A DNA stretch of 43,293 bases from Campylobacterales bacterium (GTDB lineage: Bacteria > Campylobacterota > Campylobacteria > Campylobacterales > Nitratiruptoraceae), in NCBI GenBank assembly GCA_027065825.1, contig JAMONM010000039.1:1-43293 (forward strand), written 5' to 3'. A program made the position numbers and the translations under genes. Shown here piece by piece: positions 853 through 17,682 of the stretch. The notes below the pieces were generated by a model. It saw only the letters and a list, made by a program, of their open reading frames with translations. It made no database searches and was not told the DNA's origin. Positions within the stretch are counted from its first letter, which is position 1. Each line of letters begins with the position of its first letter.

Positions 853-2832
853 TTGCGAGCACGTCTCTCACAGATTTTGGGATTATATAGATCTTTTTTG
901 GTTTTGATGGGTCTTTTCGCCCTTTTGATGAGTCTATTCCGCCTCCTCTTTTTCCTTTATCGACCGAGTAACTCCGAAGGCAGTTTGGAGGAGTATTTTT
1001 CCGCATTTTTGCTGGGGATTCGTCTCGATCTTTCATCGTTGGGATATATTTTCGCCGTGGCTTTTTTGATCACTTTTGCTCTTGTTTTTATTAGATCCCT
1101 TTCGGTGAAAACCGTTAAAAGAGTTTTGTACATCTATTTTTTTCTCGCTTTTTCCCTGTTGGCGATATTGCTGGTTTCCGATCTGCTATTTTTCTCCTAT
1201 TTCGGCGAGAGAGTCAACATTATGATTTTCGGAGTAATAGACGACGATACGGCCGCGCTGTGGGAGATAGCCAAAAAGAATTACAATCTCTTCGCCGCCG
1301 CCGTTTTAGCCGCATTGTATCTGTTTTTTTTGCGTTATGTTTTAAAAAGAGCTATTTTGGATGCCCGGGATGCGGGGATTTCCGTTGGAACTAAAGGGTT
1401 TGCCGCCATATCGTTTCTCTTCGCCGCCGCTCTTTTTTTGATAATCAGAGGCGGTTTCGGGATGTTTCCGATCTATCACTGGACTCGGGACGTGGCGGCT
1501 GATAGATTTTTAAATCAGATCTCAAAAAACGGGGTATATCTCTTCGTGGAGGCCTTGAAACAGTATAGAAAAAGCAAAAAAGATGAGATCGATTTCGTGA
1601 AAATCAGCGGCTTCGAGGGCAAAATAGAGGAGGCGTTCAAAACCGTTTCGCAAAGAGGCGAAGATTTTGGGGATTTATGGAGATACATCGAAAGAAAGAG
1701 TCCCCAAAAGGCTCCATTTGAGGGGTCTAACGTGGTTTTGGTGATGGTGGAGAGCTTCGGTATGCCTTTGCTGAAATATCAGAGCGAGCAATTCGACATT
1801 CTGGGCAGTTTGAAGCACCATTTCAAAGAGGATATCCTCTTTGAAAACTTTATTTCCACCTCAAACGGAACGATAGCCTCGATGGAGCCGACCCTTTTGA
1901 ATATAATTTCCAGGCCCTCGACTCTTCCTTACGGTCAGAGCGTATATCAAAACGTTTCGTTTGTCCAGGCGGCCGCGAAAGTTTTCAAAAGGGCCGGATA
2001 CAAGACGATTTTTCTTTACGGAGGGGATCTTTCATGGAGAAACGTGGGGAACTTTTTTTCCAAACAGGGATTCGATTACGTCTGGGGTAAAAGCAAAATT
2101 TTAAAAGAGCTATCTTTAGAACCGGAAAAATCGGTTCACGACTGGGGCGTATTTGACGAATATCTGTACAGTTTCATTTTAAAGACTCTTTCTGAAGCCA
2201 AAGAGCCTCTTTTTATATTTGCGATGACCACCAACAACCATCCGCCCTATACCGTTCCGGAACATTTCAAAAAAGAGCCGGAAATTCCTCCGAGTCTACA
2301 AAAGAGAATCAGAGGCGACGCGAAGCTGTTCCGAAAACGGATAAAGGATTACGCGTACGCGTTAGACGCTGCCGGCGATTTTTTGGACAGAATAAAAAGC
2401 TCCGATCTATTTAGGAACACTCTCGTCGCTATAACCGCAGACAACAATACCATCGAAGGCATGATGAGTTACGAAGACTATATTAAAGAGTCCAAAAAGA
2501 TTCCATTTTATATATTTTTACCGGGCGGAGCCAAACTGAGCTACGATTCAATGACGCCCGGTTCGCACGAAGATATCATGCCGACACTCTATAATCTGAC
2601 CCTTAGCGGAGTCAGATATTACGCTATCGGAGAGGATATGTTTGATCCCGATCTGCTCCATTGCGGTTTCAATGATAAAGGAATCGGAGTCGCTCCGGAC
2701 GGGTCCTTTTTGCTAAAAGAGCCCAAGACCGGATTGCAAAAGAGGTGCGCGAAACTCTATAAAGCCTCTTTGGCGGTTACCGATTTTATTGTAAAATCTC
2801 AGTTGAAAAAGGGCGTCGGAGAGAAAGAATGA
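853..2832 (+). CDS. LTA-synthase-family membrane sulfatase/phosphotransferase
   Basis: The protein has 659 residues. The N-terminal ~240 residues hold about five transmembrane helices, followed by a large periplasmic domain of the alkaline-phosphatase/sulfatase superfamily, as in LtaS and OpgB, which transfer phospho-alcohol groups onto envelope glycans. Visible active-site elements are the metal ligand E300 (VMVESFG), the presumed nucleophile T340 (SNGTIAS) and H463 (NNHPPY). The usual Asp-His metal pair is D530-N531 (ITADNNT), so the expected His is missing. The start is TTG at 853, with AAGGA at 843-847 as ribosome site, just after the tRNA. The stop overlaps the next gene by ATGA. In a Gram-negative the substrate cannot be lipoteichoic acid; modification of a periplasmic glycan, lipid A or peptidoglycan-linked sugar is possible. 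Family call firm, substrate unknown. Confidence 0.85.
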   Translation: MRARLSQILGLYRSFLVLMGLFALLMSLFRLLFFLYRPSNSEGSLEEYFSAFLLGIRLDLSSLGYIFAVAFLITFALVFIRSLSVKTVKRVLYIYFFLAFSLLAILLVSDLLFFSYFGERVNIMIFGVIDDDTAALWEIAKKNYNLFAAAVLAALYLFFLRYVLKRAILDARDAGISVGTKGFAAISFLFAAALFLIIRGGFGMFPIYHWTRDVAADRFLNQISKNGVYLFVEALKQYRKSKKDEIDFVKISGFEGKIEEAFKTVSQRGEDFGDLWRYIERKSPQKAPFEGSNVVLVMVESFGMPLLKYQSEQFDILGSLKHHFKEDILFENFISTSNGTIASMEPTLLNIISRPSTLPYGQSVYQNVSFVQAAAKVFKRAGYKTIFLYGGDLSWRNVGNFFSKQGFDYVWGKSKILKELSLEPEKSVHDWGVFDEYLYSFILKTLSEAKEPLFIFAMTTNNHPPYTVPEHFKKEPEIPPSLQKRIRGDAKLFRKRIKDYAYALDAAGDFLDRIKSSDLFRNTLVAITADNNTIEGMMSYEDYIKESKKIPFYIFLPGGAKLSYDSMTPGSHEDIMPTLYNLTLSGVRYYAIGEDMFDPDLLHCGFNDKGIGVAPDGSFLLKEPKTGLQKRCAKLYKASLAVTDFIVKSQLKKGVGEKE

Positions 2833-3797
2833 GAATCTTTGCAGTGATATCGATACTTTTTGTTTTAGGTTTTGCGGATAGCGATCTGCTGAAAATTTAT
2901 GAGCGTCAGGGAGAAAAAGCCGTCATAGAGGCGATGGACAAGATTTTGGAATCCGAAAGTTTTTGGGAAGAGAGGCTTAAAAACAGAGACGTTACTTTAG
3001 GATATTACTCCAAGAGCAAATTTTTGCTTTTGTGCGAAAAGAGCCAAAAGAGACTCCATCTATACCAGATCGTTCCGAAGGGATTTAAAAAGATAGATAC
3101 GATCGAGGTAATTTTAGGTAAAAACAGCGGAGACAAGATCAAAGAGGGAGATCTAAGAACCCCCGTGGGTGTTTACAGACTTTCCGCTAAACTGACAAAA
3201 GTGGATGATTATTACGGACCTTTTGCCTACGAGACTACCTATCCTAATCTGTTCGATAGGTTACAGGGCAAAAACGGACACGGCATCTGGATACACGGAA
3301 TGCCTTCGGACTGCGATGACAAAAAGGATACAAGAGGGTGTATCGCTATGCAAAACCACAGACTGAAGGCTTTGGAGGATCTTTTCGACTATACCAGCAG
3401 TTATCTGCTTATTTCGGAAGATCTGTTTAAAAAAGCCGATAAAAAGGATATTGTGGATATACTCTCTACACTCTACAAATGGAGAAACAGTTGGAAAGCC
3501 AGCGATTACGACAGATATATCTCGTTTTACCATAAAGAGTTCAAAAGATTCGACGGGAGTGATCTGGAGAGGTTTAAACGGTTTAAAAAGAGGGTTTTCG
3601 ATTCGAAAAAGGGCCAAAGAATAGAGATCATATTTAAAGATATCGAGATAATCCCCTATCAAAATCCGCAGGGAGCCAAACTTTATAGAGTGAATTTTTT
3701 TGAGATATACGATTCTGATAACTACCGTTTCAGGGGCGAAAAGGAGTTATATTTGAAAAAGGCCGACGAGGGATGGAAAATTTTGGTAGAAAAATAG
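2829..3797 (+). CDS. csd6: Csd6/Pgp2-like YkuD-family peptidoglycan L,D-carboxypeptidase/transpeptidase
   Basis: Protein of 322 residues with a signal peptide (about 1-17). A YkuD catalytic domain carries the family signature HG...T-R-G-C: H156-G157 (WIHGMP) and T168-R169-G170-C171, with C171 as the nucleophile. The C-terminal ~110 residues look like an NTF2-like domain (start near WRNSWKASDYDRYISFYHKE). This two-domain layout and length match H. pylori Csd6 and C. jejuni Pgp2, which trim tetrapeptide to tripeptide stems in the periplasm and help set helical cell shape. The gene overlaps the upstream sulfatase gene by 4 bases and the next (Csd4-like) gene by 25, so the three are almost surely co-transcribed. 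L,D-transpeptidase activity cannot be excluded from sequence. Confidence 0.85.
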   Translation: MRIFAVISILFVLGFADSDLLKIYERQGEKAVIEAMDKILESESFWEERLKNRDVTLGYYSKSKFLLLCEKSQKRLHLYQIVPKGFKKIDTIEVILGKNSGDKIKEGDLRTPVGVYRLSAKLTKVDDYYGPFAYETTYPNLFDRLQGKNGHGIWIHGMPSDCDDKKDTRGCIAMQNHRLKALEDLFDYTSSYLLISEDLFKKADKKDIVDILSTLYKWRNSWKASDYDRYISFYHKEFKRFDGSDLERFKRFKKRVFDSKKGQRIEIIFKDIEIIPYQNPQGAKLYRVNFFEIYDSDNYRFRGEKELYLKKADEGWKILVEK

Positions 3798-5086
3798 TCG
3801 CTTTTTTCTTTTTTCTATCTATCGCTTTGTACGGAGCGAGGCTGGATTTCGATCTGTACAAAAAAGGCGAAGCCGAACACGCTCTTTTGGTTATAGGCGG
3901 AATTCACGGAGACGAGCCGGGAGGATATTTTGCCGCCTCTTTTTTGGTGAAACACTATAAAATTACCGAGGGCGAGCTATGGGTTGTGCCGAATCTCAAT
4001 TTCGACTCCATAGTCAGATTCAAAAGAGGAGTTTACGGCGATATGAACAGAAAGTTTGCCGAAATCTCTCCCTCGGATCCCGATTACGAGCATGTAAAGA
4101 GAATCAAGGAGATAATTTTAAAGGAAAAGGTCCATCTGGTTTTGAACCTGCACGACGGGCGGGGCTACTACAGAAAAAGATGGGAAAACACCATATTCAA
4201 TCCGGCCGCGTGGGGACAGGCGTGTATTATTGATCAGGAGTTCGTGGACGGGTGTGAATACGGAAATCTCAGCGAGATGGCAAAAAGGGTCAACGAAAAG
4301 CTAAATAGAAAACATCTAAAGGAAAAGCACCATATCTTTAACATAAAAAATACCAGAACGAAATTCAAAGATGAGCAGATGAGGCTTTCGCTGACCTATT
4401 TCGCTATAACTCACAATAAACCGGCTCTAGCGATAGAGACTAGCAAAAATATCGAGGATCTGGCTACGAAGATCTACTATCAGCTCAGCGCAATTGAAGA
4501 GTTTATGAAAATTATGGGAATTGAGTTTCAAAGAGATTTTGAACTGTGTACTTCAAAAATCGAAGAGCTCATATCCAAAAGCGGCTCTTTCGTCGAAATT
4601 TCACGGGGATATATTTTGCCGCTAGACGGACTGAGATCGTATATCAACTACTTTCCGGTAATGGATAGAGGCGCCGTTTTGAAAACAAAAAGCGACGATC
4701 CTCTCGCCGCCGTCGTGAAAAGGGGAGATATATATACTCTCCAAAGGGGTCATCTGATCAGATCGCGGCTAAGGCCCCAATATTTTCAAAAGGGCGAAAT
4801 TTTAAAGAGCGTAGATGCTGAAATAGACGGAAAAGAGCAAAACATAAGTATACCTTCGATAGTGGACGTAAAAGAGAGTTTCAAAATTTTGGCTCCCTCG
4901 AATCTCAGAGTGAACGTGATTGGTTTTAGCCAAAAAGGTATACAAAACGAAAACAATATCGAAATAGGCCGCGACGAGATAATGAAAAGATACTCAGTCG
5001 ATAGCGAGGGGAGACTCTTTAGAGTCGAGTTTTATGAAAAAAAGAGCTTTAGAGGCTCTTTTTTGGTCCGTTTTCAGAAAAAGTAG
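3773..5086 (+). CDS. csd4: Csd4/Pgp1-like M99 peptidoglycan D,L-carboxypeptidase
   Basis: Protein of 437 residues with a hydrophobic signal segment (about 8-22). The zinc site is visible as H45-GD-E48 (GGIHGDEPGG) and H127 (VLNLHDG), with a later IETSKN segment holding the likely catalytic Glu. M99 enzymes such as H. pylori Csd4 and C. jejuni Pgp1 cleave tripeptide to dipeptide stems in the periplasm and are needed for helical shape. H. pylori Csd4 uses an atypical Gln as the first zinc ligand; this protein has the conventional His. The ATG at 3773 lies inside the end of the Csd6-like gene and gives a clean signal peptide. The two enzymes act in sequence on the same stem peptide. The 3' end runs 13 bases into the convergent Pel barrel gene. 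Confidence 0.9.
   Translation: MENFGRKIVAFFFFLSIALYGARLDFDLYKKGEAEHALLVIGGIHGDEPGGYFAASFLVKHYKITEGELWVVPNLNFDSIVRFKRGVYGDMNRKFAEISPSDPDYEHVKRIKEIILKEKVHLVLNLHDGRGYYRKRWENTIFNPAAWGQACIIDQEFVDGCEYGNLSEMAKRVNEKLNRKHLKEKHHIFNIKNTRTKFKDEQMRLSLTYFAITHNKPALAIETSKNIEDLATKIYYQLSAIEEFMKIMGIEFQRDFELCTSKIEELISKSGSFVEISRGYILPLDGLRSYINYFPVMDRGAVLKTKSDDPLAAVVKRGDIYTLQRGHLIRSRLRPQYFQKGEILKSVDAEIDGKEQNISIPSIVDVKESFKILAPSNLRVNVIGFSQKGIQNENNIEIGRDEIMKRYSVDSEGRLFRVEFYEKKSFRGSFLVRFQKK
5038..5064. terminator. Bidirectional intrinsic terminator lying inside the csd4 3' coding end
   Basis: AAAAAAGAGC (5038-5047), loop TTTAGAG, GCTCTTTTTT (5055-5064) form a perfect 10-bp stem with A- and T-runs on both sides. On the - strand it follows the stop of the Pel barrel gene (5074) and would end the Pel operon transcript. 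On the + strand it lies before the csd4 stop codon at 5086. Confidence 0.55.
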
Positions 5087-6771
5087 AAATAATAAATCAT
5101 ACTCTCGATATATTCTTGGTTGATGCCGTCGACGGCATTGGAGTAGCCTACGGAAAAACTGATATTGTCTTTTCTAAATAGCGGACCGCCTATACCGATA
5201 TTGGCGCTGAATCCTCCGTAAGTTACGCTGTTGTAATATAGCCCAAGATCCACAAACGGCCTCCATCTGCGCGTATATCTATATTTGTGGTCATATCCAA
5301 AAAGTATTCCTACGCCTCCTTCGTAGTACGAGTCAGGCAGAAACTGCGGATTATCCTCTACGCTGATCCTTTTAATCAGTTCGGTGGGGTAGTTTTTGGA
5401 GAAGATCGCCCTTTTTAGATAGGTTTTGTAGGTTATATCCGGATAGGCGGTTCTAGTTTTAAAGATATATCGGATCAGAAATTCCTTTGCGTTTCCCAAG
5501 GCTTTTCCCTCTTGGTCCTCTATCGATTTGTAGCCTAGTGCGGTTTCGAAATATCTTTTGTTATCCATTTTGTATGTTGTAAACAGTTCTACGGAGTCAG
5601 CTCTGGCGGCTACAATCGTATGGGAGCTCTCCTGTGTGTTTTCGTTGAGGGCAATTTTTACGTATGAGTCGATCTTGTCGGTACATCTGTTGAAATATAA
5701 CGCCTGGAAGCTCCAGTATCGGTTTATGTGGTCTTTGTAGCCGGCGTAAAGCTCGTAAAATCCTCTGTTTAGAAGCTCTTTGTAACCGAAACCGAACTCC
5801 TGCTGGGAGGAGGGGAGGTCTTTTAATATCTGGGAGTCGTAATCCTGAAACAGACTTTTTTTCGTCGCAAAGGTGAAGTAACGTTTTTGACTCCACTCTT
5901 TGGTTATCTGCGCCTCGTTTTGCAAGTAGCTCAGCGTTCCCCGATTGATATGGGTTAGCCGTAAATCTAACCTGGAAGCGTCGGTATGGATTATATCTAG
6001 AAACTGTTTATATAGGTGGTAGTCGTAGATATATCTGGACATGTAATCGAAGGCGTAGCTTTTTGAATCATCGTATCTTTGCAGCTCGAACAGCGCCTGA
6101 ACTTCGTCTCTGTGAGGCAATGTTTTTATATATTTTGACAAAACTCTTCTCATTCTCTCTTTGTCATAATCGTGCAAAGCTATATTTAAAAGCATCCACG
6201 GCTCTGGGAAGAAAAAGGGTTTTTTTCTTTTTTTGGTTAACTTTGTCGGTTTTTTTGTCTTTTTCGTTTCGACCGACTCCTCTTTGGACTGTTCGACTGG
6301 CTCCTCTTTGGGCCGATGTTTAGGCTTTGTTTGAGGCCGTTTTGAAAAAAGCTCTTTTTTTTGCGGCGGCTCTTTGCCGAATATTTGAGATAGAGTATTT
6401 TTTAGTTCTAGGTATGATTGCCGGTCGGAGCCGTTTTTTACTCTTTCAAGCAGGTTGAAAAAGGCTTTTTTGGCCTTTTGAGGATCCGTATTGACCACCC
6501 AGAACCCGCCTCTTAGGTCTTCGATTTTTAGATTTTTCGCTATTTTTCTAAGAGGCGTCGCTCTTTTTGACAGTAGATAGCGAATAGTGAGTCTGCCGGA
6601 ATCGGTTTTGTATATTATGGATCTGTTTTTGATCTTTTGCGGCAGACTCTCGTATATTTTGACAAGAGCCTCCATATTGTCGGAGGTTACCAGCTGGATC
6701 GAATAGAGCCTCTCTTTGGCCAGCAACGAGAGGTTAAAAACCAAGATCAACAGTAAGACCGTTCTTATCAT
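5074..6771 (-). CDS. pelB: Outer-membrane barrel part of a split PelB, with N-terminal SPOR-like domain
   Basis: Protein of 565 residues with a signal peptide (1-18). Residues about 20-100 fit the SPOR beta-alpha-beta-beta-alpha-beta pattern (LYSIQLVTSDN ... GRLTIRYLLSKRAT ... GFWVV). A Lys/Glu/Pro-rich linker follows (about 130-190), then a short helical region and a C-terminal region of alternating aromatic strands ending YYFYFF, the terminal-Phe signature of outer-membrane barrels. It corresponds to the C-terminal export porin half of Pseudomonas PelB, through which Pel leaves the cell. Its ATG overlaps the stop of the TPR gene before it (ATGA), and it is the last gene of the operon. The SPOR-like domain is absent from canonical PelB; such domains bind denuded peptidoglycan glycan strands. 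Barrel and context are well supported; the SPOR call rests on pattern only. Confidence 0.8.
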   Translation of the reverse strand: MIRTVLLLILVFNLSLLAKERLYSIQLVTSDNMEALVKIYESLPQKIKNRSIIYKTDSGRLTIRYLLSKRATPLRKIAKNLKIEDLRGGFWVVNTDPQKAKKAFFNLLERVKNGSDRQSYLELKNTLSQIFGKEPPQKKELFSKRPQTKPKHRPKEEPVEQSKEESVETKKTKKPTKLTKKRKKPFFFPEPWMLLNIALHDYDKERMRRVLSKYIKTLPHRDEVQALFELQRYDDSKSYAFDYMSRYIYDYHLYKQFLDIIHTDASRLDLRLTHINRGTLSYLQNEAQITKEWSQKRYFTFATKKSLFQDYDSQILKDLPSSQQEFGFGYKELLNRGFYELYAGYKDHINRYWSFQALYFNRCTDKIDSYVKIALNENTQESSHTIVAARADSVELFTTYKMDNKRYFETALGYKSIEDQEGKALGNAKEFLIRYIFKTRTAYPDITYKTYLKRAIFSKNYPTELIKRISVEDNPQFLPDSYYEGGVGILFGYDHKYRYTRRWRPFVDLGLYYNSVTYGGFSANIGIGGPLFRKDNISFSVGYSNAVDGINQEYIESMIYYFYFF

Positions 6772-8348
6772 TTTCTTATCCTGTAGCGTTCAATATAGTA
6801 TTGCGCGGTGTCGTAAAAGTTTTTCATCAGATAAAAGTTTACTTTTGAACTGAGGTTGAATCTAAAATCGTAATGCTTTTTAGCAAAAGAGAAGAGTTCG
6901 GCTATTTTGGGATAGTTTTCAAAATACATACTAAGTCTTAAAAAGTTGTAGAAAAAGTCAAAATCGTACAACAGGGCTCTCTCCTTTTTGAGCATACTCT
7001 TCATCATTCGGTATGTTTTGTATCTTATGTTGTCGCATTCTTCGAACTTTCCAACGGTATAGAGCAGATCGGAATATATTATCAACATGGAGAAGTCGTT
7101 GCCGTTTCGTTTTAATCTTTGTTTGATTATTTCGAGAGCCTTTTTTTCCTCTTTTAGAAAAAGATATAGCGAGAGGAGGGCTTCCTGCGGCAGTTTGTAT
7201 CTTTTTGAATACCGTTTTAAAAACTCTCTCATTCCCTCTATATCCTGAGTTTCGATCAAAAACCACATATAGGAGGTTACCAGCTCCTGCGAATCGGATA
7301 TCTCTTTTAGAGCTTTTTCGAAGGTTTTCTTGGCCGCTTCTACCTCTTTTAGTTCCATGTAGGCTCTTGCAAGCACTATCCGGTAATATGGGTTTAGGTA
7401 TATCTTTTCGTTTTTTATGGACTCGAGCAGTTTGACTATTTCTCTCCATCGGCCGCTCTTTTGAGCGCTCTGGATAAATAGGGATATAAAAATCGGATTT
7501 TTGCCTTTTTTATACTCTCTCAGGGCCATATCGGCGGCTTTGTCGAACTTTTCCCTTTTTATATAAAGGGTAATCAGCTGTGCAACGTAATAGTCTTCGG
7601 CTTTGCCGAGGGCGTAGAGCCGCTTTAACGTTTCGAAGGCCTTTTTTTCATCGTTTTGCAGTTTGGCCATGCCAAATAGCGTTTTTAGATAAAAGGGCGT
7701 CTCTTTGTCGGCTTTTTGCAAAATCTCGTACGCTTTTTGATACCTTTTGGCGGCCAGCTCTCTTTTGGAGAGATAAAGAGCTATTTCGGTGGGAATATTC
7801 CCGTACTCCCTTTCATAGCTCTTTGCGGTATTTTTTAATCCTTTTACGTCTCCGATTCGTTTGTAAAACTTGAAAAAGTATAGATACAAACTCTTTTTGT
7901 CCAGAAGATTTCCGTATCTTCTCAAAGATGACAGAGCTTTTTCGAATTCCGATTCGTAATCGTATATGTCCAGCAGCTTTTTTAGGCTTCGTACGTCGCC
8001 TTTTGCGGCTTTGTTAGATAGAATCTCCGTAGCTATATCGTATCTCTTTAGGGCAAGGGCCAGATCGAGTGCTTTTGTTTCGTACTCTTTTTTTCCGAGT
8101 ATCCGATAGAGTTTATGGTACTCCTTTAGAGCCTCCTGAGGCTTGTCGTTCCACAGAGCCAGCTTGGCGAGCCACTCTCGATAGTATATGTCGTTTTTGT
8201 CGAGTTTGTACACTAACTTTTTTGCGAGTCTGTATGCGCTTTTTATATCGTTGCTGTAGACGAACGATTTTAGCATCAGATCGTATTGATCCTCTTTCGC
8301 CAAAGCCGAAACGCACAGCATTATAAAAAGAGTTATCGCTTTTTTCAT
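6768..8348 (-). CDS. Secreted tetratricopeptide-repeat protein, middle part of a split PelB
   Basis: Protein of 526 residues: signal peptide (about 1-17, ending SALAKED) followed by TPR-like helical repeats to the C terminus, for example repeats around YRLAKKLVYKLDKNDIYY, KAYEILQKADKETPFYLKTL and EAAKKTFEKALKEISDSQEL. There is no barrel and no second membrane segment, so it should be a soluble periplasmic scaffold. In Pseudomonas a single PelB carries about 19 TPRs that bind PelA before the barrel; here this segment is its own gene, 2 bases after the anchored TPR gene and overlapping the barrel gene by 4. Function as part of the Pel export channel is inferred from position and fold. Confidence 0.75.
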   Translation of the reverse strand: MKKAITLFIMLCVSALAKEDQYDLMLKSFVYSNDIKSAYRLAKKLVYKLDKNDIYYREWLAKLALWNDKPQEALKEYHKLYRILGKKEYETKALDLALALKRYDIATEILSNKAAKGDVRSLKKLLDIYDYESEFEKALSSLRRYGNLLDKKSLYLYFFKFYKRIGDVKGLKNTAKSYEREYGNIPTEIALYLSKRELAAKRYQKAYEILQKADKETPFYLKTLFGMAKLQNDEKKAFETLKRLYALGKAEDYYVAQLITLYIKREKFDKAADMALREYKKGKNPIFISLFIQSAQKSGRWREIVKLLESIKNEKIYLNPYYRIVLARAYMELKEVEAAKKTFEKALKEISDSQELVTSYMWFLIETQDIEGMREFLKRYSKRYKLPQEALLSLYLFLKEEKKALEIIKQRLKRNGNDFSMLIIYSDLLYTVGKFEECDNIRYKTYRMMKSMLKKERALLYDFDFFYNFLRLSMYFENYPKIAELFSFAKKHYDFRFNLSSKVNFYLMKNFYDTAQYYIERYRIRK

Positions 8349-8350
8349 CT

Positions 8351-9403
8351 TTACAGCCTCTTTGCCAGTGATTTGGAAATTTCGTTGGCCAGTTTCAGAT
8401 CTCCGGCGGCAAGGGCCGCTTTTAACATCCAGTAGGCGCTCTCTTTGTCCGAAATAAAATCGTTTTTATACTCTCTGGCCATCTTCGCGGCCGTTTCGGG
8501 CTTGTTTCCCCACAGCAGAGATTTTATGGCCTCTACGAAATAGCGGCTCTTTTTCTCTTGTGAGACGCTTTTCATAGCCTTTAGATAGAGCTTCGAGGCC
8601 TTTTCGTACTCTTTGGCGGCCAGAGCGTATTTGGCGCTCTCTTCGAGCCACGCTGTTCTGTTTACCGGATCTCCTTCGGAGAGCTCTTCGAATATTCTCG
8701 AGGCCGAAGCGTATTGCTGATCAGCTATATATAGTTTGGCAAGTTTTAGCATATATAGATTTTTGTTGTTTCGATCCTCTTTTAGCAGCAGTTTCAGATA
8801 CTCGATAGCCTCTTTGGTATCTGAGGTCTGTATGGCCAGATCGTAGGCCTTTTCCAGCCATACCGGAGATAGGGTCGAAAGGGCCACACGTCTGATCGCC
8901 TCCTTGGCCAGAGGATATAGTCCGAAGGATAGCGCCTCTTGGTAAACTCTTTTGTAGGTTTCGTTCTTTCTGGAAGCGTTTAAAATCTCTCTCAGAGCCG
9001 CTGCGATTTTTTGTCTGATTCTGTTTTTCTCATCCTCGTCGTAGGATTTAAAATAGGCGATTTTTAACATTTTGTATCTCAAAAAAGGAATCTCTTCGTA
9101 AGAAGGGAATCTTTTTTTTATATACTCAAACTGCTCTTTGGCTCTATCGAGCGATCCGGTGGCTATATATTTGTCGAACAGCATCAGATTCATATCCAGA
9201 TCGGTATTGTAGTATCTTTTAATATTCTCTATGTATTTTATAATAAGGGTGTCGTTGCTTTTTTCTTTTTTTACCAGATTCACTATCTTGTCTTTCGGAA
9301 ACAGCAGATAAAGTACCGCACATACGATCAATACGAACCCGGCTATTTCGTACCATCTAAATAGTTTTTGGTGCGTCAGTTCACCGTTTACATCCGGTCT
9401 CAA
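8351..9403 (-). CDS. Inner-membrane-anchored TPR protein, N-terminal part of a split PelB
   Basis: Protein of 350 residues. A short cytoplasmic N terminus with Lys/His/Arg is followed by one transmembrane helix (about 19-38, WYEIAGFVLIVCAVLYLLFP) and then periplasmic TPR-like repeats (LDRAKEQFEYIKKRFPSY, YASASRIFEELSEGDPVN, YEKASKLYLKAMKSVSQE). This matches the start of Pseudomonas PelB, an inner-membrane anchor leading into TPRs. It overlaps the 3' end of pelA by 23 bases, so translation is probably coupled. It likely tethers the export apparatus to the inner-membrane synthase. The role is inferred from topology and operon context. Confidence 0.72.
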   Translation of the reverse strand: MRPDVNGELTHQKLFRWYEIAGFVLIVCAVLYLLFPKDKIVNLVKKEKSNDTLIIKYIENIKRYYNTDLDMNLMLFDKYIATGSLDRAKEQFEYIKKRFPSYEEIPFLRYKMLKIAYFKSYDEDEKNRIRQKIAAALREILNASRKNETYKRVYQEALSFGLYPLAKEAIRRVALSTLSPVWLEKAYDLAIQTSDTKEAIEYLKLLLKEDRNNKNLYMLKLAKLYIADQQYASASRIFEELSEGDPVNRTAWLEESAKYALAAKEYEKASKLYLKAMKSVSQEKKSRYFVEAIKSLLWGNKPETAAKMAREYKNDFISDKESAYWMLKAALAAGDLKLANEISKSLAKRL

Positions 9404-12041
9404 TTCTCACCTCTTTGATACTGTTTGATTTTATCGTAACGTATGATCCTTTTTTTGAGACTTTGACGCCTCTGGGGTATATATTGTATTCGCAGCCGTT
9501 TTTTATCTCGAATTTGGCGTAAATCGGTACGAACGATCGAAGTTTTACGAAATTTTCGCCGCTTTTTTGGACTATACCGTTCGCTTCGACAAGTCTAAAA
9601 TCGGGTTTGTCTCCTTTATAGGATATCCTATATCGCCCCTTTTCGTTTAGATGTATATAGTAACCGCTATTTTTACGATATTTGTATCCTAAAACGTTTT
9701 CGCTGCGGTCCGAAATCGGTTTTTGGGTTCTTAGCGTTTTTAGATTTTTGTTCGTAACCACTATCCAATCTCCTTCGAGATCCTTGGCGACGGCTAAATT
9801 TTCGAAATCCAAAACTCTTTTTATCCACATAGAGGCGAACATGGGATTGACCTTTTGCCCAAGAGCCCATCTGTAGACTCTGTGCAAGGCGTTCAAGGAG
9901 GCCTTTTTCGAGGCTGAATAGAAATGGTAATATATATCGATAGGTTTTAATCTTTTTGGATATTCGGTTCTCTTAAACGCCTCGATCGCCTTTACGTATC
10001 CGCCGTAATTGGTCCATTCGTCCGTAAATATGTTTTCGTTTTGGATAGCGCAATATACTTGAAAGTAATCTCCCCTGTATAGTCCCAACGGAGCCACGAG
10101 GGAGAGCCAAGGGTTCTCGTCGGTAATTACCGTATCTCCACCGTTGATGTTCAGTATACGGTTGTCGTAACAGATTTTGAGCGCCTCTTTGGAGGGTAGA
10201 CAGTCGCCGGTCCAGAAAAAGAGACGACATTTTTTATCTTTGGGCAAGAGCGAGTTTACGTATTTGACGGAACCTAAAATCTCTCTTTTTAGATCAAAAG
10301 AGTATCCTTTGATTTTTAGATTGTACCCTTCGATATTTTGCTCGCTCTTGCTCCATTTAAAAGGGTGGCTAAAGCTGTGGCTGGCCGGTTCTACGTACGA
10401 TAGGGAGAATATCTTTTTCGCTATTTCTTCCAGCTTGGCGGACTCTTTGGGATAGAGCCCCCAGGGGGCGATTTCGGCCTCGATAACCGATATCGAGTGG
10501 GGAATGGGGTATTTTTTCAACACCTTTTCAAACAGTACCTCGGCCGCATATTTTCCTCCGTCGAAAAACGCTTTTTCGATAAAACCGTCTCCGTCAATAT
10601 GGGAAAAGAGTATCCTTCTGCCGTTTTCGGTGGTGGTATCGGGTACGGGAATATCGGGCAGTGTTAGAGCCTTTTTGAAAAAAGTAAACGGATCTACCGC
10701 CCACAGATCGTAATTGAACAGATTTACTACGGCTCCTCCTGGCAGAGCAAAGCCGCCCCAGGGTGTATAGCCCGTCAGAGCGAATATGGCGCCTTCTCTT
10801 TCTATAGCCGCTACCGGTTTTAACTCTTTTCCCTTTAGGAGAAACTGCGAATCGAAAAAGTTGGGTTTGGTTTCGTATTCGGCCTCTTTGGCAAGGAGTA
10901 TTTTTGATTGAGAGCTCTTTTGTATCTGAAACATCTCAAGTCCCAGCCGCTCAAAAAGTTCCGGATTTTCGAATCCGAAACCGTTAATGAACAGAACTTT
11001 TACCCCCTGCTTTATATTCGATTCTATCCAATCGAAAAACTCCCGTTCGTTATTTAGCAGTCTCTGCTCCAATGCCACAACTATACCGGCGTAGCGGTCG
11101 AATATAGATGTTTTTGGCAGACCTTTTGAGAGGTTCCAGAGTCTGGGTACGAAACCCAAATACTCAATAGGCATGGAAAAGAGCGAATGCGCCTCGCTTT
11201 CGTTAGGGGGCAGATCGCTCATATACAGTATCAGAACATCTCTGGGCACGTATCTGACGGTGCTTACTCCGATATGTTTTAGATGTGGATCGGCTATATA
11301 GGGAATGAAACCCTCGGCCGCTATCTTTTTGGCCAGCTCTTCGGCTCCCAGAAACGGCGGTTCCATATAATCTACCACTATGACCGGTTTTGATTTGGCT
11401 ATCTTTTTTAGTTTCGGCAGCAGCCAGTTTCTATCCGCTATAGATACCGCGCGTATGCTTTTATCTACGGTATTTATGCCGCTATAGAGCGATTCGACCA
11501 AAAAGGCGTCGATTTCGTTTTGGATTCTGTCGTAGATTTCGAATCCGCGGTTTGTGATAATTATTTTGTTTGGAAACTCTTTTCTTAGTTTTTTGACGAA
11601 TTTAACAAGAGCCTCTTCATATTCGGCCCGCGCTTTTTTATCTTTTAGGGCTATCTGGTAAGAGTCGAGTGTATCTAGCATAAACCCGTCGAATTCTTTT
11701 AGGGTTTTCGCCTTTTTCAGCAGATCTTCGCGGACTTTGTCGATTCTGAGATCAACGATATGGCTGTTCCAGTCCCTGTTCTCTCCTATTTTTATCTCAT
11801 CCTCGGCTATATAGCTTTCGCCGACGCTGAGATAGGCGATAACTTTCGAGTCGGTATCGAGGTTTTCTATCTCCACCGAAGAGGGATCCACTATAACCCA
11901 GTCGAACAGCGAAAATATCTGTGCCGGGGGATTCGTGTCGTAATATATGGCTACGCTTTTTGGAGCTTTGGTTCCCGCCAACAGCAACCCGGTCATCAAA
12001 AAGAGAATCGATATAAATCTACTGCAACATAAACGTTTCAT
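9381..12041 (-). CDS. pelA: PelA, Pel polysaccharide hydrolase/deacetylase
   Basis: Protein of 886 residues with a signal peptide (about 1-22). Residues about 28-270 form a TM1410-like glycoside hydrolase domain (GH166 type in Pseudomonas PelA) with FDGFMLDTLDSYQ (D123, D126) and VESLY (E183). A middle region follows, then a carbohydrate-esterase-type deacetylase domain with D483/D485 (SHIDGDGF) and H555/H559 (ASHSFSHPF). The D485-H555-H559 spacing (70 and 4) equals that of Pseudomonas PelA D530/H600/H604. PelA partly de-N-acetylates the polymer in the periplasm, which gives Pel its positive charge, and its hydrolase domain can cut it. It sits between pelG and the TPR gene, overlapping both by 23 bases, whereas pelA is first in the Pseudomonas operon. 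Confidence 0.92.
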   Translation of the reverse strand: MKRLCCSRFISILFLMTGLLLAGTKAPKSVAIYYDTNPPAQIFSLFDWVIVDPSSVEIENLDTDSKVIAYLSVGESYIAEDEIKIGENRDWNSHIVDLRIDKVREDLLKKAKTLKEFDGFMLDTLDSYQIALKDKKARAEYEEALVKFVKKLRKEFPNKIIITNRGFEIYDRIQNEIDAFLVESLYSGINTVDKSIRAVSIADRNWLLPKLKKIAKSKPVIVVDYMEPPFLGAEELAKKIAAEGFIPYIADPHLKHIGVSTVRYVPRDVLILYMSDLPPNESEAHSLFSMPIEYLGFVPRLWNLSKGLPKTSIFDRYAGIVVALEQRLLNNEREFFDWIESNIKQGVKVLFINGFGFENPELFERLGLEMFQIQKSSQSKILLAKEAEYETKPNFFDSQFLLKGKELKPVAAIEREGAIFALTGYTPWGGFALPGGAVVNLFNYDLWAVDPFTFFKKALTLPDIPVPDTTTENGRRILFSHIDGDGFIEKAFFDGGKYAAEVLFEKVLKKYPIPHSISVIEAEIAPWGLYPKESAKLEEIAKKIFSLSYVEPASHSFSHPFKWSKSEQNIEGYNLKIKGYSFDLKREILGSVKYVNSLLPKDKKCRLFFWTGDCLPSKEALKICYDNRILNINGGDTVITDENPWLSLVAPLGLYRGDYFQVYCAIQNENIFTDEWTNYGGYVKAIEAFKRTEYPKRLKPIDIYYHFYSASKKASLNALHRVYRWALGQKVNPMFASMWIKRVLDFENLAVAKDLEGDWIVVTNKNLKTLRTQKPISDRSENVLGYKYRKNSGYYIHLNEKGRYRISYKGDKPDFRLVEANGIVQKSGENFVKLRSFVPIYAKFEIKNGCEYNIYPRGVKVSKKGSYVTIKSNSIKEVRIETGCKR

Positions 12042-13395
12042 AGTGAAGCCTTTTGAAATCTCTGTTTATCATTATCATACCTATTGCCGAGACTATCAAC
12101 AGCGATAGCGCAAAACCGTATCCGAAAAAGTAGGGACCGAGCCTGATCGATAGCAGAGTAAGCGCAATATTTAGGATCAAAAACAGGGCCGTCAGAACCA
12201 AAACGTTTTTTCTGCGATCCAGATAAAAGAGTATGGCCAAAAGCGACATGAAAAATAGCTGCAGTTGGGTGGCTACCAGATCGATATGAAACAGAGGCAG
12301 ATAAAGCAGCGGCATGCCGAGAATTTTAAATATCTCTTCGCTAAAAATTATCAGAATAATCGTTATTATACTCTGTACCCTCAAAATCTCCACCAGAGCC
12401 GTTCTGGCGCTCTGAATCATATCGTTTCCGTTTTTGTAGATGTGTTCCAAAGTGGCGCCTTCCCTGGCGGCGTCGTAGTACTCTTCATATTTTTTTGCGA
12501 ACTCCGTCTCTATTCTTAATAAAAATACCGCCATTCCCGGCGCAATGGCCAGATACGCCAAAAAAATGGGCAGGTCGTATATGGCGGAGTCTCTGAGCCA
12601 CTCTAGAACTTTTGAGCTGGTAAGAGGATGGTACCAGAATATAAATTTGTCAGCCCATATGGCCGCGTTGTAGAAAAAACCGGTCCATATCAGGGATCTG
12701 TACATTTTGCCTCTTAAAAAGTCGAACTCGACCAGTCTGTCAGATGGGTATTTTTTGAGTATCAATCCCACCAGCATAAAGAACAAAAAGGCGTGACCCG
12801 AAAAAAAGGCGCCCAGCATTGCATCGAGCCCGTATCGGGCGAGGAAAAAGACCATGATTAAAATTATTACGTAGGCAAAGAAAAAGGAGTAGATTATGAA
12901 TTTATAGTTTTTCAATCCAGATAGGACTACGTTGGCGATCCAGATTCCGCAAAAGAGAGCGAAGGTAAAAGCGAACAGAATCGAAAAGAGAATTCCCGCG
13001 CTCTTTAGAAACATTAACGAAAATGGCAAAATGAGTAAAAAACCGGCCACCATATTGATAAAAATGGCTCCCATCAGATTCGGAAGAATTTTGTCCTCTT
13101 TTTTTTCAAATATACGATCGGCGATATATCTGGTAAAAGCCAGTTGAAAAAAGCCTGTAAATATCAAAGAAAGTGCGATCAGATACGTAACTGTTACCTG
13201 AAACTGGGTGATTATCTCCTCGTTGTGTATAAAGCTTCTGGCAATATAACCGGCGATCAAAATACTCAAAATAGAGATCAGCCAGGGTCCGGAGCTGATG
13301 GCGGTGGAGTAGCTGTATGCCTTTATTATGGACATCAGCCTCTTTTTACTCAATATTTTTTTGAGTTCGAATCCGATTCCTGCCATATTAGCCAA
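12019..13395 (-). CDS. pelG: PelG, inner-membrane Pel polymer transporter
   Basis: Protein of 458 residues with about 12 predicted transmembrane helices and a Wzx/MATE-like layout. The N terminus MANMAGIGFELKKILSKK followed by AYSYSTAISSGPWLISILS is characteristic of PelG. With PelD, PelE and PelF it forms the inner-membrane synthase complex that makes and moves Pel across the membrane. It overlaps pelF upstream by 8 bases and pelA downstream by 23, consistent with one tightly coupled operon. Nothing in the sequence suggests truncation. Confidence 0.93.
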   Translation of the reverse strand: MANMAGIGFELKKILSKKRLMSIIKAYSYSTAISSGPWLISILSILIAGYIARSFIHNEEIITQFQVTVTYLIALSLIFTGFFQLAFTRYIADRIFEKKEDKILPNLMGAIFINMVAGFLLILPFSLMFLKSAGILFSILFAFTFALFCGIWIANVVLSGLKNYKFIIYSFFFAYVIILIMVFFLARYGLDAMLGAFFSGHAFLFFMLVGLILKKYPSDRLVEFDFLRGKMYRSLIWTGFFYNAAIWADKFIFWYHPLTSSKVLEWLRDSAIYDLPIFLAYLAIAPGMAVFLLRIETEFAKKYEEYYDAAREGATLEHIYKNGNDMIQSARTALVEILRVQSIITIILIIFSEEIFKILGMPLLYLPLFHIDLVATQLQLFFMSLLAILFYLDRRKNVLVLTALFLILNIALTLLSIRLGPYFFGYGFALSLLIVSAIGMIMINRDFKRLHYETFMLQ

Positions 13396-14872
13396 CCTCT
13401 TTGTATATTTTTTCGTAGCTTTTTAGAAATCTATCGAGAGTGTAGTATCTCTCTACTCTCTCTATGGCGCTTTTTGAGGCCTTTTCCCACTTGTTATCGT
13501 CGGTTAAAAGATCTATATAGGCTCTGGCCAGCTCCGAAGGGTTGGCTATCGGAACCACTTCGCCAGCTTTGCCTATCTTTTTATCCTCCTCGTCTATCCC
13601 TCCGTTTATGAGCTGAGAGCACGAGCCCACATCAGTGGTAACGGCCGGAACTCCGGCCGCGAAACCCTCTATGATGACCAGCGGCATCCCTTCGCTGATC
13701 GAACTGAGGGTGGCTATTTTTGTCTGAGGCAGTACCTCCTCGATATTTTTGAATCCCAAAAATTTGACCCTCTCTTCCAGTCCGAGGGCTTCTACTAGCA
13801 ATCTGCACTCTTTCGCGTACGTTTCGTCCTCGTTTTGCGGTCCGACTATCCAGCCCTCCGCCTCAGGAAGCCTGTTTATAGTGATTCTCATCGCTTTAAT
13901 GAAGGTTTTTATATCCTTTATGGGTACGACTCTGCCTATTAGGGTGATTATCTTTTTCTCTTTTCGCTCTTTTCTCAACGGTTTTAGTCTCTCCACGTCC
14001 ACGCCGTTTGGGATCACTTGCGTCTTATTCGGGTCGGCTCCGTACGAGATCTGTATCTCTTTGGCTTTGTCAAAGAGAGAAATAATCGGGTTGGCGGCTT
14101 CGTAGGAGACCTTTCCTATACCTTCGAAAAACTTTATCCACATATTTTTTATATGGCTCAGATCTCCCAGCTCTTTTTGGAAGACGGTTCTAGTATCTAC
14201 CAGCCAGTCGGCGTTTAACATATCTATTTTTCTCTCTCTGGTATAAATTCCGTGTTCGGTTAGAACGAAAGGTTTGCGGTAGTTAAAGTGTAGTAAAGCT
14301 CCCAAAAAACCGGCATAACCTGTAGAAGGCGAATGGATAATGTCGAATTTGTCCATTTTTTTGGCCGTCTGTGCCAGTTTCCATATAGGAGAGTGCATAT
14401 TCCTAACGGTCCAGAAATAGTCGATAAAAGCGCTCTGAGGACAAAAATGCAGATACTCCTTTTTGATATATTCCCAAGATCCGGTTCCGTATAGAAACTC
14501 CTTTTGCGTAATCTCTCGAAGATAGAAATCGAGACTCTTAAATTGAGCCGGAAATGCTGAATTTGCGCTTTTTTCTCTGAACCATCCGTGGAGGGCGGAA
14601 ATGGTCTCCTCAAACTCTTTTTTCGTTTTGGTAAAGTCCGGTTCCGGTCTTTCAACGTTATCGAATAGAAACTCGGCATGTATCTTTTTTAAATTTTTGG
14701 GCAGATCGTACTCTATCTCCCCGTAATCTTCTCTTTTGCTACCTATAAAAAGTATTTCGAAATCGTACATATATAGACCGGAAATCAACTGATGTATCCA
14801 GGTGGAGACGCCGCCTTTGATGTAGGGGTATGTTCCTTCGGCTATTATCAGGATTTTTTTTCTATCAGACAT
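13388..14872 (-). CDS. pelF: PelF, family GT4 glycosyltransferase for Pel
   Basis: Protein of 494 residues, cytosolic, GT-B fold. The N-terminal domain has IIAEGTYPYIKGGVSTWIHQ, a PelF hallmark with the KGGVSTW loop. The C-terminal nucleotide-sugar domain shows IPNGVD, IGRVVPIKD and the GT4 EX7E motif (SEGMPLVIIEGFAAG). PelF polymerises UDP-activated sugar into Pel with the PelD-PelE-PelG membrane complex. It overlaps pelE upstream and pelG downstream by 8 bases each. Length and motifs are those of an intact enzyme. Confidence 0.93.
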   Translation of the reverse strand: MSDRKKILIIAEGTYPYIKGGVSTWIHQLISGLYMYDFEILFIGSKREDYGEIEYDLPKNLKKIHAEFLFDNVERPEPDFTKTKKEFEETISALHGWFREKSANSAFPAQFKSLDFYLREITQKEFLYGTGSWEYIKKEYLHFCPQSAFIDYFWTVRNMHSPIWKLAQTAKKMDKFDIIHSPSTGYAGFLGALLHFNYRKPFVLTEHGIYTRERKIDMLNADWLVDTRTVFQKELGDLSHIKNMWIKFFEGIGKVSYEAANPIISLFDKAKEIQISYGADPNKTQVIPNGVDVERLKPLRKERKEKKIITLIGRVVPIKDIKTFIKAMRITINRLPEAEGWIVGPQNEDETYAKECRLLVEALGLEERVKFLGFKNIEEVLPQTKIATLSSISEGMPLVIIEGFAAGVPAVTTDVGSCSQLINGGIDEEDKKIGKAGEVVPIANPSELARAYIDLLTDDNKWEKASKSAIERVERYYTLDRFLKSYEKIYKEVG

Positions 14873-15872
14873 TTACGTCTCCTTCCCACAGAGTGGCAAT
14901 GGGATACAAAAACGGATCCAGTTTTAGATAGCGGTTTTTTATAAAAATGTCGCGAACTCTTGCGTATTCGCCTCTTTGATAGAGAATCTCCGCCAAAAAG
15001 GGAAGGGTTTTGTATTCCGCGGCCCCGTATTTTACGGCTTTTTGGAAGTACTCCATCGCGCTTTGGGTATCTTTTTGTCTAAGGGAGAGTTTACCCATCG
15101 TGATGTATAGATACGGATCCGTAGGAAGTTTTTCCAACGCTTTGAGCGCGTTTTGTTCTATCTGTTCGAAAATATATTTTTGATACTCTTCGTCGGCCAG
15201 TCCGATATAGATATATTCCCAGTAGAGTCTCGAGAGCTCCTTGTGTATTAATGCTCTTTCTTTTGGATCCTCGCATTTTTGTAAGAGCAGTAGCTCTTGG
15301 TGGATCTTGTCGTTTATCTCTTTTTCTAGTCGGTTGATTACGCTAAATGAGAGAAGTCTGATTTCGTCGTTGGGATCTTTGAGTCCCATTTTGATCAGTT
15401 CGATGCTTTTAGGGGTTTTCAATTCGGTCAGCAGTAAAAAAGCCTTGAGCCTCAGCTCGGTCGCCAGATCCTTTTTCATCGCGAAAACCTTCAAGGAGCT
15501 TTCGCCGTAGGTTCTTTTGTTGAGGACGATTTTTTCGAGAATAATTTCGCTAAAGTCGGCTTTTTTTACGGGCAGGTATATCGACTCTTTTATGCGCCTG
15601 AGAATTACGGCGTATACCAAAAACCCTATTATGGATAGAAGCGGAACTATAAAGCAGATTAGCGCTATTAGCATGTACGACAGCAGTTTGGGATTTTTAT
15701 ACTTTTTGGGAATGACCAACCAGATGGCGAATCCTATCAGCGCCGAAGCCAGTATATGCAAAACGAAAAAGAGTATCAGCGCGGCTATTTGGTTTTCGTG
15801 AGTCAATGCGCTCAAAGCCCCTATCTCCAATAGCAGCGATACCGAAGCCGCTTTATATTCCGTCGCCAGCAT
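14865..15872 (-). CDS. pelE: PelE, membrane and TPR subunit of the Pel synthase
   Basis: Protein of 335 residues: hydrophobic segments in the first ~105 residues (AALILFFVLHILASALIGF; MLIALICFIVPLLSIIGF), then a cytosolic helical region with TPR-like repeats (for example LPTDPYLYITMGKLSLRQKD). This layout and its place between pelD and pelF identify PelE, which bridges PelD to the glycosyltransferase in the Pseudomonas system. Start overlaps pelD by 20 bases; end overlaps pelF by 8. Sequence conservation is low in this family, so the call leans on topology and gene order. Confidence 0.82.
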   Translation of the reverse strand: MLATEYKAASVSLLLEIGALSALTHENQIAALILFFVLHILASALIGFAIWLVIPKKYKNPKLLSYMLIALICFIVPLLSIIGFLVYAVILRRIKESIYLPVKKADFSEIILEKIVLNKRTYGESSLKVFAMKKDLATELRLKAFLLLTELKTPKSIELIKMGLKDPNDEIRLLSFSVINRLEKEINDKIHQELLLLQKCEDPKERALIHKELSRLYWEYIYIGLADEEYQKYIFEQIEQNALKALEKLPTDPYLYITMGKLSLRQKDTQSAMEYFQKAVKYGAAEYKTLPFLAEILYQRGEYARVRDIFIKNRYLKLDPFLYPIATLWEGDVNV

Positions 15873-17136
15873 CTTGCTTAGTCAGCTCTTGGAGTGTGGT
15901 CGATAGTTGCGGTTTAACAAGAAGTATCTTTTTAGTTACGCTATCTTTAATGCCGGAAAACTCTCTGGCTATTAGGTTGTCTATTCTGTTGACGAAAGAG
16001 TCTGCGCCCAACAAAGAGGTTAGGGGCAGCAAAGTTACGATTTTGCATCTGGAGTCGTCGCACTGAGCGTACATTATATCCATTCCTCTCAATGACCGCT
16101 CTATTTTGGTGGATAAAAGCTCGTTTTCCGCAAAGAAGGGAAATTCGAATACTACCAGCGAGCTTTCGGTTTTGAACTTTTGGTTCAGCAGCGAAAGCCT
16201 TTGCAGCTCTTTAATAAAAAAGTCCGGAATTTCCGGATATTCTTTGTTGATATCTCCGAAGCTTTTATCGTTCAAATATATGTTTATAAAGTAGGTTAAA
16301 AAAAGCGCCAGGGTTAGCATATTGTCTCTGTTGAGATTCAAAAAGGAGATCTCCTTTACCAGAAAAATCCCCATTATTTCGCCGTGAGTATCCACCGCGG
16401 GAACTACCGCCGTGTATCTGGTATGCTCCACGTTGGAGACCGCCAGATAGTTGGCGTTTTTGTTTTCTATGGCGTTTTCTACCAGCGGATCGTGCAGTAC
16501 CAGCTCTACGGCCGAATTTCCTATGTTGGAGACCTTTTTATAGATGGAACCCTCTTTTATATAAAAGGCCCCGCTCTCTATACCGCATACTCTCGATAGA
16601 AGCTTGGAAAACTCCTCAAAAGCGTTTTTGGGGTCTTTTCTGACGAGATCCTTGATCTCTTTTAGAGTCTCTCTGATGCTCATAGGTTTTAGAATATAGT
16701 TTTTTTCAAGCTGATCGTGGGAGGTTTTTATTACGAATAGATTAACGGCGTTCTCTTCGAGTCTGTCGTTTAGGAAATCGTTGATCTCCTCGTGCTCTTT
16801 CAGTTTTCTGTGCCAGTAAAAGTGAAATTCGCTCAGCACGAAGGCCAGCAGAATATAGAGTGAAAAGATCTCGTAGTGAAAACTTTCATAAAAAAAGAGC
16901 ATCGCAAGAGCCATCACCGACAAAATGATGACCGCCGCCGAGAACCCGTAAAATAGCGTAATGATGGTAACCACGAAAATAAAGTATGAAAAAGGCTTTT
17001 GCAAAAGCAGAGGATCTTCCGGAGAGAAATACCATCCGATCGCAATGGCGAAAACGGTAAAAAGAGCCGTTTCCAAATAGGCGGCCAGGTCCTCTCTAAA
17101 AGAGAGTCTCTCTTTTAGCGGTTCCAAAAATCCCAT
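15853..17136 (-). CDS. pelD: PelD, c-di-GMP receptor of the Pel synthase
   Basis: Protein of 427 residues. About four transmembrane helices occupy residues 18-110, followed by a coiled segment, a GAF domain (about 155-300, with GAFYIKEGSIYKKVSNIG and EIMGIFLVKEI) and a C-terminal degenerate GGDEF domain lacking the GGDEF signature. The allosteric I-site motif RxxD is present as R350-G-M-D353 (ERSLRGMDIMY), matching R367/D370 of Pseudomonas PelD, which binds c-di-GMP and switches on Pel synthesis after translation. The gene follows pelC by 12 bases and overlaps pelE by 20. An EAL phosphodiesterase encoded at 29685-31403 could lower its ligand. Confidence 0.9.
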   Translation of the reverse strand: MGFLEPLKERLSFREDLAAYLETALFTVFAIAIGWYFSPEDPLLLQKPFSYFIFVVTIITLFYGFSAAVIILSVMALAMLFFYESFHYEIFSLYILLAFVLSEFHFYWHRKLKEHEEINDFLNDRLEENAVNLFVIKTSHDQLEKNYILKPMSIRETLKEIKDLVRKDPKNAFEEFSKLLSRVCGIESGAFYIKEGSIYKKVSNIGNSAVELVLHDPLVENAIENKNANYLAVSNVEHTRYTAVVPAVDTHGEIMGIFLVKEISFLNLNRDNMLTLALFLTYFINIYLNDKSFGDINKEYPEIPDFFIKELQRLSLLNQKFKTESSLVVFEFPFFAENELLSTKIERSLRGMDIMYAQCDDSRCKIVTLLPLTSLLGADSFVNRIDNLIAREFSGIKDSVTKKILLVKPQLSTTLQELTKQDAGDGI

Positions 17137-17148
17137 GACCGGCCGCTT

Positions 17149-17682
17149 TTAAAAGAGACTCAAAATTCTGTTTTTGTTCTTGTCGGTTCCGTACAGCATC
17201 GAGGATACGAGCTCCTCTATGGATTCTTGGGCTATCGTTCCTACCGATTCGTAGCTCCATCCGGTTTTCGAGGCGACGCCTCTCCAAATAAATCTTTTCT
17301 CTTTCGTATCGTACACTTTTATAGTGACGCTTACAGCCGGCTCTCCGTCTATGCCTGTTTTATAGCGAAACTCGTTCACGTAGCCTGTAACCACGTAGTC
17401 GCTGTCTTTTGCGTCTTTGATTATTTTTTTGATCTCTTCAAAAGTGTAGTCGCGCTCTTCAAAGTCCCACAGACTACCTTTAACGGTAGCCACTTTGGAT
17501 TTTAGAACGCCTTCGGCTATCGAGGCAGCCCTGTAGCCGGCCATAGGGGTTTGGGTGAAATTCGCAAAAGGTACCACTCTGAAACTTCTGTTTTCGGCGG
17601 CTCCGGGGGGTTGAGTGTTGTATACTTCGCTGCAGCCGCTCAACAGTATCATCGCGGCGATAAACAGAAAAAATCTTCTCAT
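17149..17682 (-). CDS. pelC: PelC, outer-membrane lipoprotein of Pel export
   Basis: Protein of 177 residues with a lipoprotein signal: lipobox LSGC with acylated Cys at position 17. The mature part begins SEVYNTQPPGAAENRSFRVVPFANFTQTPMAGYRAASIAEGV, resembling PelC and the CsgG-like periplasmic fold. In Pseudomonas, PelC forms a 12-mer ring under the PelB barrel that funnels the polymer outward. Here pelC is the first gene of the operon, directly behind the promoter region at 17683-17830, rather than third as in Pseudomonas. Confidence 0.88.
   Translation of the reverse strand: MRRFFLFIAAMILLSGCSEVYNTQPPGAAENRSFRVVPFANFTQTPMAGYRAASIAEGVLKSKVATVKGSLWDFEERDYTFEEIKKIIKDAKDSDYVVTGYVNEFRYKTGIDGEPAVSVTIKVYDTKEKRFIWRGVASKTGWSYESVGTIAQESIEELVSSMLYGTDKNKNRILSLF

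Follow-up and report, generated by a model that had tools for sequence, protein, structure and literature searches.

The closest described system is PelB of Pseudomonas aeruginosa (9h80; 1193 aa), a single chain that runs, in this order, from an inner-membrane helix through a TPR scaffold, two PelC-docking TPRs and a stalk to a 16-strand barrel, and that has PelA and PelC as partners in its operon. Published work takes this single chain to span from one membrane to the other, and one-chain PelB is the usual state in Pseudomonadota. Residues 1-36 are the proposed inner-membrane helix, TPRs 9-14 are required for PelA localisation and TPRs 9-15 are predicted to contact the PelA deacetylase domain (PMC12022489). 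In the cryo-EM structure of P. aeruginosa PelBC, PelB residues 762-802 are unresolved, while two TPRs from Gly-803 and the stalk lie inside the PelC ring; a barrel that lacks these two TPRs and the stalk does not hold PelC (PMC12141448). A second form of PelB is encoded by two genes, one for the N-terminal part (here B1, about 260-370 aa) and one for the fused middle and C-terminal parts (B2B3, about 915-1100 aa), and occurs in Campylobacterales, Geobacteraceae, Myxococcota, Elusimicrobia and some Pseudomonadota. A published mention of 'pelB fission' dates from 2020 (5 iii legend of PMC7112194); in the main text of that article we found no species, number of parts or break point. We found no description of a three-part PelB in the open-access literature. 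Split pelB is already known, and the three-part PelB that we describe here is a new variant of it, and a real one.

The window, by which we mean the whole stretch of 43,293 nucleotides that was analysed, carries a complete pel operon on the minus strand. It runs from 17682 to 9381 as pelC-D-E-F-G-A, and B1, B2 and B3 follow as its final three genes (5074-9403), so that PelA, PelC and PelDEFG are all encoded beside them:

17149..17682, minus strand: pelC, lipoprotein (profile match to PelC 9h80_C, E 1.7e-37; lipobox and near-invariant Trp columns)
15853..17136, minus strand: pelD (PF16963, E 1.8e-15)
14865..15872, minus strand: pelE, TPR membrane protein (from operon position; same gene in the pel loci of relatives)
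13388..14872, minus strand: pelF (NF038011, E 1.6e-190)
12019..13395, minus strand: pelG (PF16933, E 1.5e-145)
9381..12041, minus strand: pelA, 886 aa, deacetylase/hydrolase partner of PelB (phmmer to PelA 9cgy, E 3e-136)
8351..9403, minus strand: B1, inner-membrane-anchored TPR protein (PelB N-terminal part), 350 aa, TTG start
6768..8348, minus strand: B2, secreted TPR scaffold protein (PelB middle part), 526 aa
5074..6771, minus strand: B3, outer-membrane pore protein (PelB C-terminal part), 565 aa

The three intact open reading frames that the original prediction had placed here are indeed present. The genes are tightly packed, with an overlap of 23 bp between pelA and B1, a gap of 2 bp between B1 and B2 and an overlap of 4 bp (ATGA) between B2 and B3. 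On the plus strand next to pelB (2829-5086) lies a cell-shape gene pair, a YkuD/Cds6-type L,D-transpeptidase (2829-3797) and an M99 carboxypeptidase (3773-5086). In two genomes of the same genus a different cluster stands beside this pair (L145 6629-17612, L146 3804-14784). We ruled the two genes out as pel partners because in these genomes, which lack a PelB barrel, the pair adjoins that other cluster.

Homology to one-chain PelB was assessed with hhalign, where profiles built solely from the split proteins of the window and of a second genome (G005) were aligned to a one-chain profile led by Stutzerimonas stutzeri PelB (1181 aa). B1 aligned to residues 3-276 of the fused protein (prob 99.6), B2 to 275-788 (prob 99.9) and the PelB-like part of B3, which begins at about residue 190, to about 798-1179. 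A local alignment of the B3 N-terminal region over the TPRs from 564 on has long gaps and is not read as homology. On P. aeruginosa PelB (9h80) the single B1 sequence matched residues 131-263 (phmmer, E 4.9e-8), and the profiles of B1, B2 and B3 matched 146-256 (E 5e-8), 286-739 (E 1.3e-66) and 810-1178 (E 1.9e-25), respectively; the B2 profile also matched the PelB TPR crystal structure 5wft. B3 is recognized by PF24604, the PelB C-terminal barrel family (E 3.8e-32, 112.5 bits against a cut-off of 31), B2 matches TPR_15 (E 3.5e-30) and B1 matches TPR_19 (E 6.3e-10). The profile searches proposed with the original prediction have thereby borne out its central claim that the parts of PelB lie on three genes, since all three proteins match PelB segments in order. 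Read from these alignments, B1, B2 and B3 tile PelB collinearly and completely, with no segment missing.

Within the three proteins the following elements can be recognized:

9296..9355, minus strand: B1 transmembrane helix, residues 17-36 (Kyte-Doolittle 19-aa window, 2.16 at residue 17)
8298..8348, minus strand: B2 signal peptide, residues 1-17, ...SALA/K (read from the sequence)
6718..6771, minus strand: B3 signal peptide, residues 1-18, ending ...LLA (read from the sequence)
6472..6717, minus strand: B3 small N-terminal domain, residues 19-100, SPOR-like by AF2 model and Foldseek
6208..6372, minus strand: B3 disordered basic linker, residues 134-188 (19 K/R, 8 D/E; pLDDT <50 over 135-179)
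5983..6204, minus strand: B3 two TPRs and stalk helix, residues 190-263 (AF2 model; matching element in 9h80)
5080..5973, minus strand: B3 16-strand beta-barrel, residues 267-564 (AF2 model)

The B1 helix has no obvious cleavage site, and hydropathy plots place equivalent helices in the other two three-gene loci (L038 in G005 and L149 in G201). The B2 orthologues of G005 and G201 begin with a hydrophobic signal sequence; B2 lacks both a membrane anchor and a lipobox. The hydrophobic start of B3 is likewise kept in L038 and L149. The claim of separate export holds in that each protein has its own membrane or export signal, but B1 is membrane-anchored and not secreted. The AF2 model of B3 (34 sequences, mean pLDDT 79.9) has 9h80_M as its top PDB match in Foldseek (E 2.4e-21, TMt 0.82). 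It predicts helices at residues 191-201, 204-214, 220-229, 233-246 and 251-263 in front of the barrel, and in the barrel a helix between strands 7 and 8 (383-388) and another between strands 11 and 12 (464-469), which match Plug-I and Plug-O of P. aeruginosa PelB in position (PMC12141448). The next-best matches after PelB are BcsC (6tzk, 9b8a) and the secretin 4y25 (PgaA barrel). These are polysaccharide export barrels too, but they serve other polysaccharides, share only about 6-10% identity and have no PelC ring. The locus hence has the 16-strand barrel, the TPR scaffold and, by hydropathy alone, the inner-membrane helix of a PelB. It differs from the P. aeruginosa protein in being three chains instead of one; we do not take the single chain to be a defining property of PelB, because two-gene forms are common.

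The positions of the two cuts can be compared with the functional map of PelB. The end of B2, extrapolated on 9h80 by about 60 residues past the aligned part, and the start of the PelB-like part of B3 fall in the unresolved stretch 762-802. The PelA-binding TPRs 9-15 fall within B2, and the cut between B1 and B2 lies near residue 275, where we claim no known joint. Since B2 and B3 part at the unresolved stretch, B2 contains TPRs 9-15 and B1 carries the N-terminal helix, the three genes coincide with the three proposed modules of PelB: one that receives the polymer, one that holds PelA and one that exports together with the PelC ring.

The three-gene arrangement recurs outside the window. In G005, a single-contig genome of the same family, the genes stand in the same order and encode proteins of 361, 548 and 573 aa. 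The third genome is the MAG G201 ('Campylobacterales bacterium isolate 356-284'), whose locus was assembled from three contigs (L055, L149, L150); its B1 has 350 aa, its B2 527 aa and its B3 at least 508 aa on L149, completed on L150, which overlaps by 167 bp. Two of the three genomes are draft assemblies. Pairwise identity of B1, B2 and B3 among the three genomes is 28-43%; PelG of the window is 75% identical to that of G005. Intact frames in three genomes at such identities show that the arrangement has been kept over a long divergence and is no sequencing error or pseudogene. With an own signal on each protein and the split kept in two further genomes, the locus is, as the original prediction stated, not a single frameshifted gene. 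As a separate observation, the other pel loci examined in the family to which G201 is assigned carry one-gene PelB; the three-gene locus of G201 may reflect gene transfer or a binning error.

Among 17 Campylobacterales pel loci inspected gene by gene, 14 have the two-gene form, with B1 and a fused B2B3 of 917-1044 aa, a single pelB gene of about 1210 aa is present in two (L040, L053), and three genes are present in one (L038). Two-gene PelB was also seen in named loci of Geobacteraceae, Myxococcota, an Elusimicrobium, two Betaproteobacteria and an Agitococcus, and one-gene PelB in most of the named Pseudomonadota loci; on the tree described below, two-gene forms make up 33 of 59 loci. The cut between B1 and B2B3 is therefore ordinary: it is found in most Campylobacterales and in the Geobacteraceae, Myxococcota and Elusimicrobia loci examined. 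These two-gene systems share the B1/B2 cut and the operon context with the window, but they keep scaffold and pore on one chain. The cut between B2 and B3, which separates the scaffold from the pore, is rare, with one origin and three genomes. The survey of pel loci suggested along with the original prediction thus confirmed that the three-gene arrangement recurs, but it also turned up fused pelB (L040, L053) and a commoner two-gene form. As the fused genes represent other states of the same evolutionary series, they do not refute the split. Barrel frame lengths in samples of four groups (Campylobacterota, Trichlorobacter's phylum, Pseudomonadota and Elusimicrobium's phylum, with the short frames G203 C5 and G1091 left out) established no further separate third barrel gene. 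Short barrel frames in G130 (L025) and G193 (L034) were rejected as further splits, as both run off contig ends. A scan of the named genomes with the single B3 sequence gave no match, although a PelG profile did work. Two other observations came from the survey. Sulfurimonas MAGs (L111, L113, L119) carry a second PelA-like gene of about 906-908 aa downstream of pelB, besides the usual pelA. PelB of Pseudomonas neustonica (L121 3111-5621) reads as 363 + 836 aa, which may be a natural split or a sequencing frameshift.

B3 has a signal peptide of its own, a SPOR-like domain and a basic linker that fused PelB lacks, and residues 19-100 of B3 have no counterpart at this place there. All three genomes keep this segment, at 44-50% identity to that of the window, and it is predicted to fold as beta-alpha-beta-beta-alpha-beta (best AF2 model pLDDT 81.7, pTM 0.76; two of five models above 70). 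The best Foldseek hits by probability and TM-score are the RlpA SPOR structures 6i09 and 6i05 (prob 0.84, TMt 0.57-0.58), at E values of 0.25-0.30 that are not significant, and a search of the domain from the window and G005 with Pfam SPOR (PF05036) gave no match. SPOR domains bind denuded glycan through a conserved Gln and a basic patch (PMC6895207); the three B3 sequences share an invariant Gln in strand 1 and an invariant Arg in strand 3, which might be the positional equivalents of the SPOR residues. In the models the domain looks SPOR-like, which we treat as a lead and not as a finding. While most two-gene systems lack such a domain, some carry a similar-looking one at the N-terminus of B2B3:

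L044 1576-4623; L045 1499-4615; L046 15949-19083: two-gene PelB with SPOR-like N-terminus, about 100 aa longer than usual
L111 11245-14346; L113 14946-18041; L119 12903-16028: two-gene PelB with SPOR-like N-terminus, about 100 aa longer than usual
L078 2218-5517; L101 2279-5530: betaproteobacterial two-gene PelB with SPOR-like N-terminus, about 100 aa longer

The L078 and L101 proteins give sub-threshold Pfam SPOR matches (E 0.018 and 0.046). Common descent of the B3 domain and the N-terminal domains of two-gene PelB was not supported when their sequence profiles were compared (prob 8%). It is conceivable, if somewhat doubtful, that a SPOR-like domain which binds the wall is gained repeatedly at the N-terminus freed by a cut in PelB, as a tether that would replace the covalent link across the periplasm; this reading covers B3 of the three-gene loci and B2B3 of the Sulfurimonas-type and some betaproteobacterial two-gene loci. 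If it were true, Pel export would sit at sites of denuded peptidoglycan.

How the split arose can be approached from a PelF+PelG tree of 59 loci, which is unrooted, comes from a quick search and has some long branches. The three-gene state forms one clade (100*) within a clade of six rows (96*), whose remaining members are two-gene loci of Myxococcota and Elusimicrobia and which contains no other Campylobacterales; the three-gene label needs one change on the tree. From this nesting and from the added N-terminal segment of B3 we infer the order two-gene to three-gene. B1 would have separated first. The cut between B2 and B3 would have followed as a single event, at the flexible joint that precedes the unit bound by PelC, and B3 would have acquired its own signal peptide, SPOR-like domain and basic linker. 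PelF and PelG of the window (12019-14872) group with the Myxococcota/Elusimicrobia loci L056, L057 and L061 and not with other Campylobacterales. This grouping hints that the pel operon may have entered the lineage from outside, by transfer between phyla.

Taken together, B1, B2 and B3 probably form a PelB in three parts that serves a complete Pel operon as its exporter across the envelope, with the parts stacked non-covalently; this state would have arisen stepwise. Assembly into one channel, the contacts, the roles of the parts and the production of Pel are what we infer from this. B1 would be anchored in the inner membrane, its first TPRs taking the polymer from PelD-E-F-G. B2 would be a periplasmic TPR superhelix that holds PelA and along which the polymer is carried past it, and B3 the outer-membrane pore, with the PelC lipoprotein ring built on its two TPRs and stalk. 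Most likely the three would join end to end at their TPR faces, and with PelA and PelC, into a bridge without covalent links between its parts, where Pseudomonas has a single chain. Against such a stack speaks B2, where the absence of anchor and lipobox means that nothing in its sequence predicts an attachment to B1 or B3.

The same lack of any anchor in B2 would fit an arrangement with no single bridge, in which B1 would serve the inner-membrane synthase alone, B2 would be an unattached carrier of PelA, and B3 together with PelC would be a pore complete in itself, tethered to the cell wall through the SPOR-like domain. Each part corresponds to a published functional module, and B3 could be anchored independently by its additional N-terminal domain and its basic linker. 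However, no segment has been lost from the tiling of TPRs, which would be expected of a superhelix that still has to be continuous, and the genes are adjacent, overlapping or near-touching in all three genomes; we regard independent modules as unlikely. Far less probable is that programmed frameshifting at the overlaps joins the three genes into one PelB chain. The B2/B3 overlap of 4-7 bp lies in A-rich sequence in the window and G005, but the third genome has no A-rich run before it (gtttcgagATGA), a fused chain would bury a signal peptide mid-chain, and the B1/B2 junction of the window is a gap. That a single pelB was broken by sequencing or assembly errors, or is a decaying pseudogene, is hardly credible: the window genome is a draft of 116 contigs and neighbouring lineages have longer PelB genes, but the divergent frames recur with their own starts and export signals, and error could not create the approximately 170 B3 residues between signal peptide and PelB-homologous part, for which fused PelB has no counterpart there.

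The three-part PelB bears on whether PelB has to span the two membranes without interruption, and on the role of each segment. Here evolution has cut PelB at two places, and every part can be removed, exchanged or purified by itself. The detached pore unit suggests a smaller target for structural studies, and the cut sites mark where a PelB-type scaffold tolerates a break.
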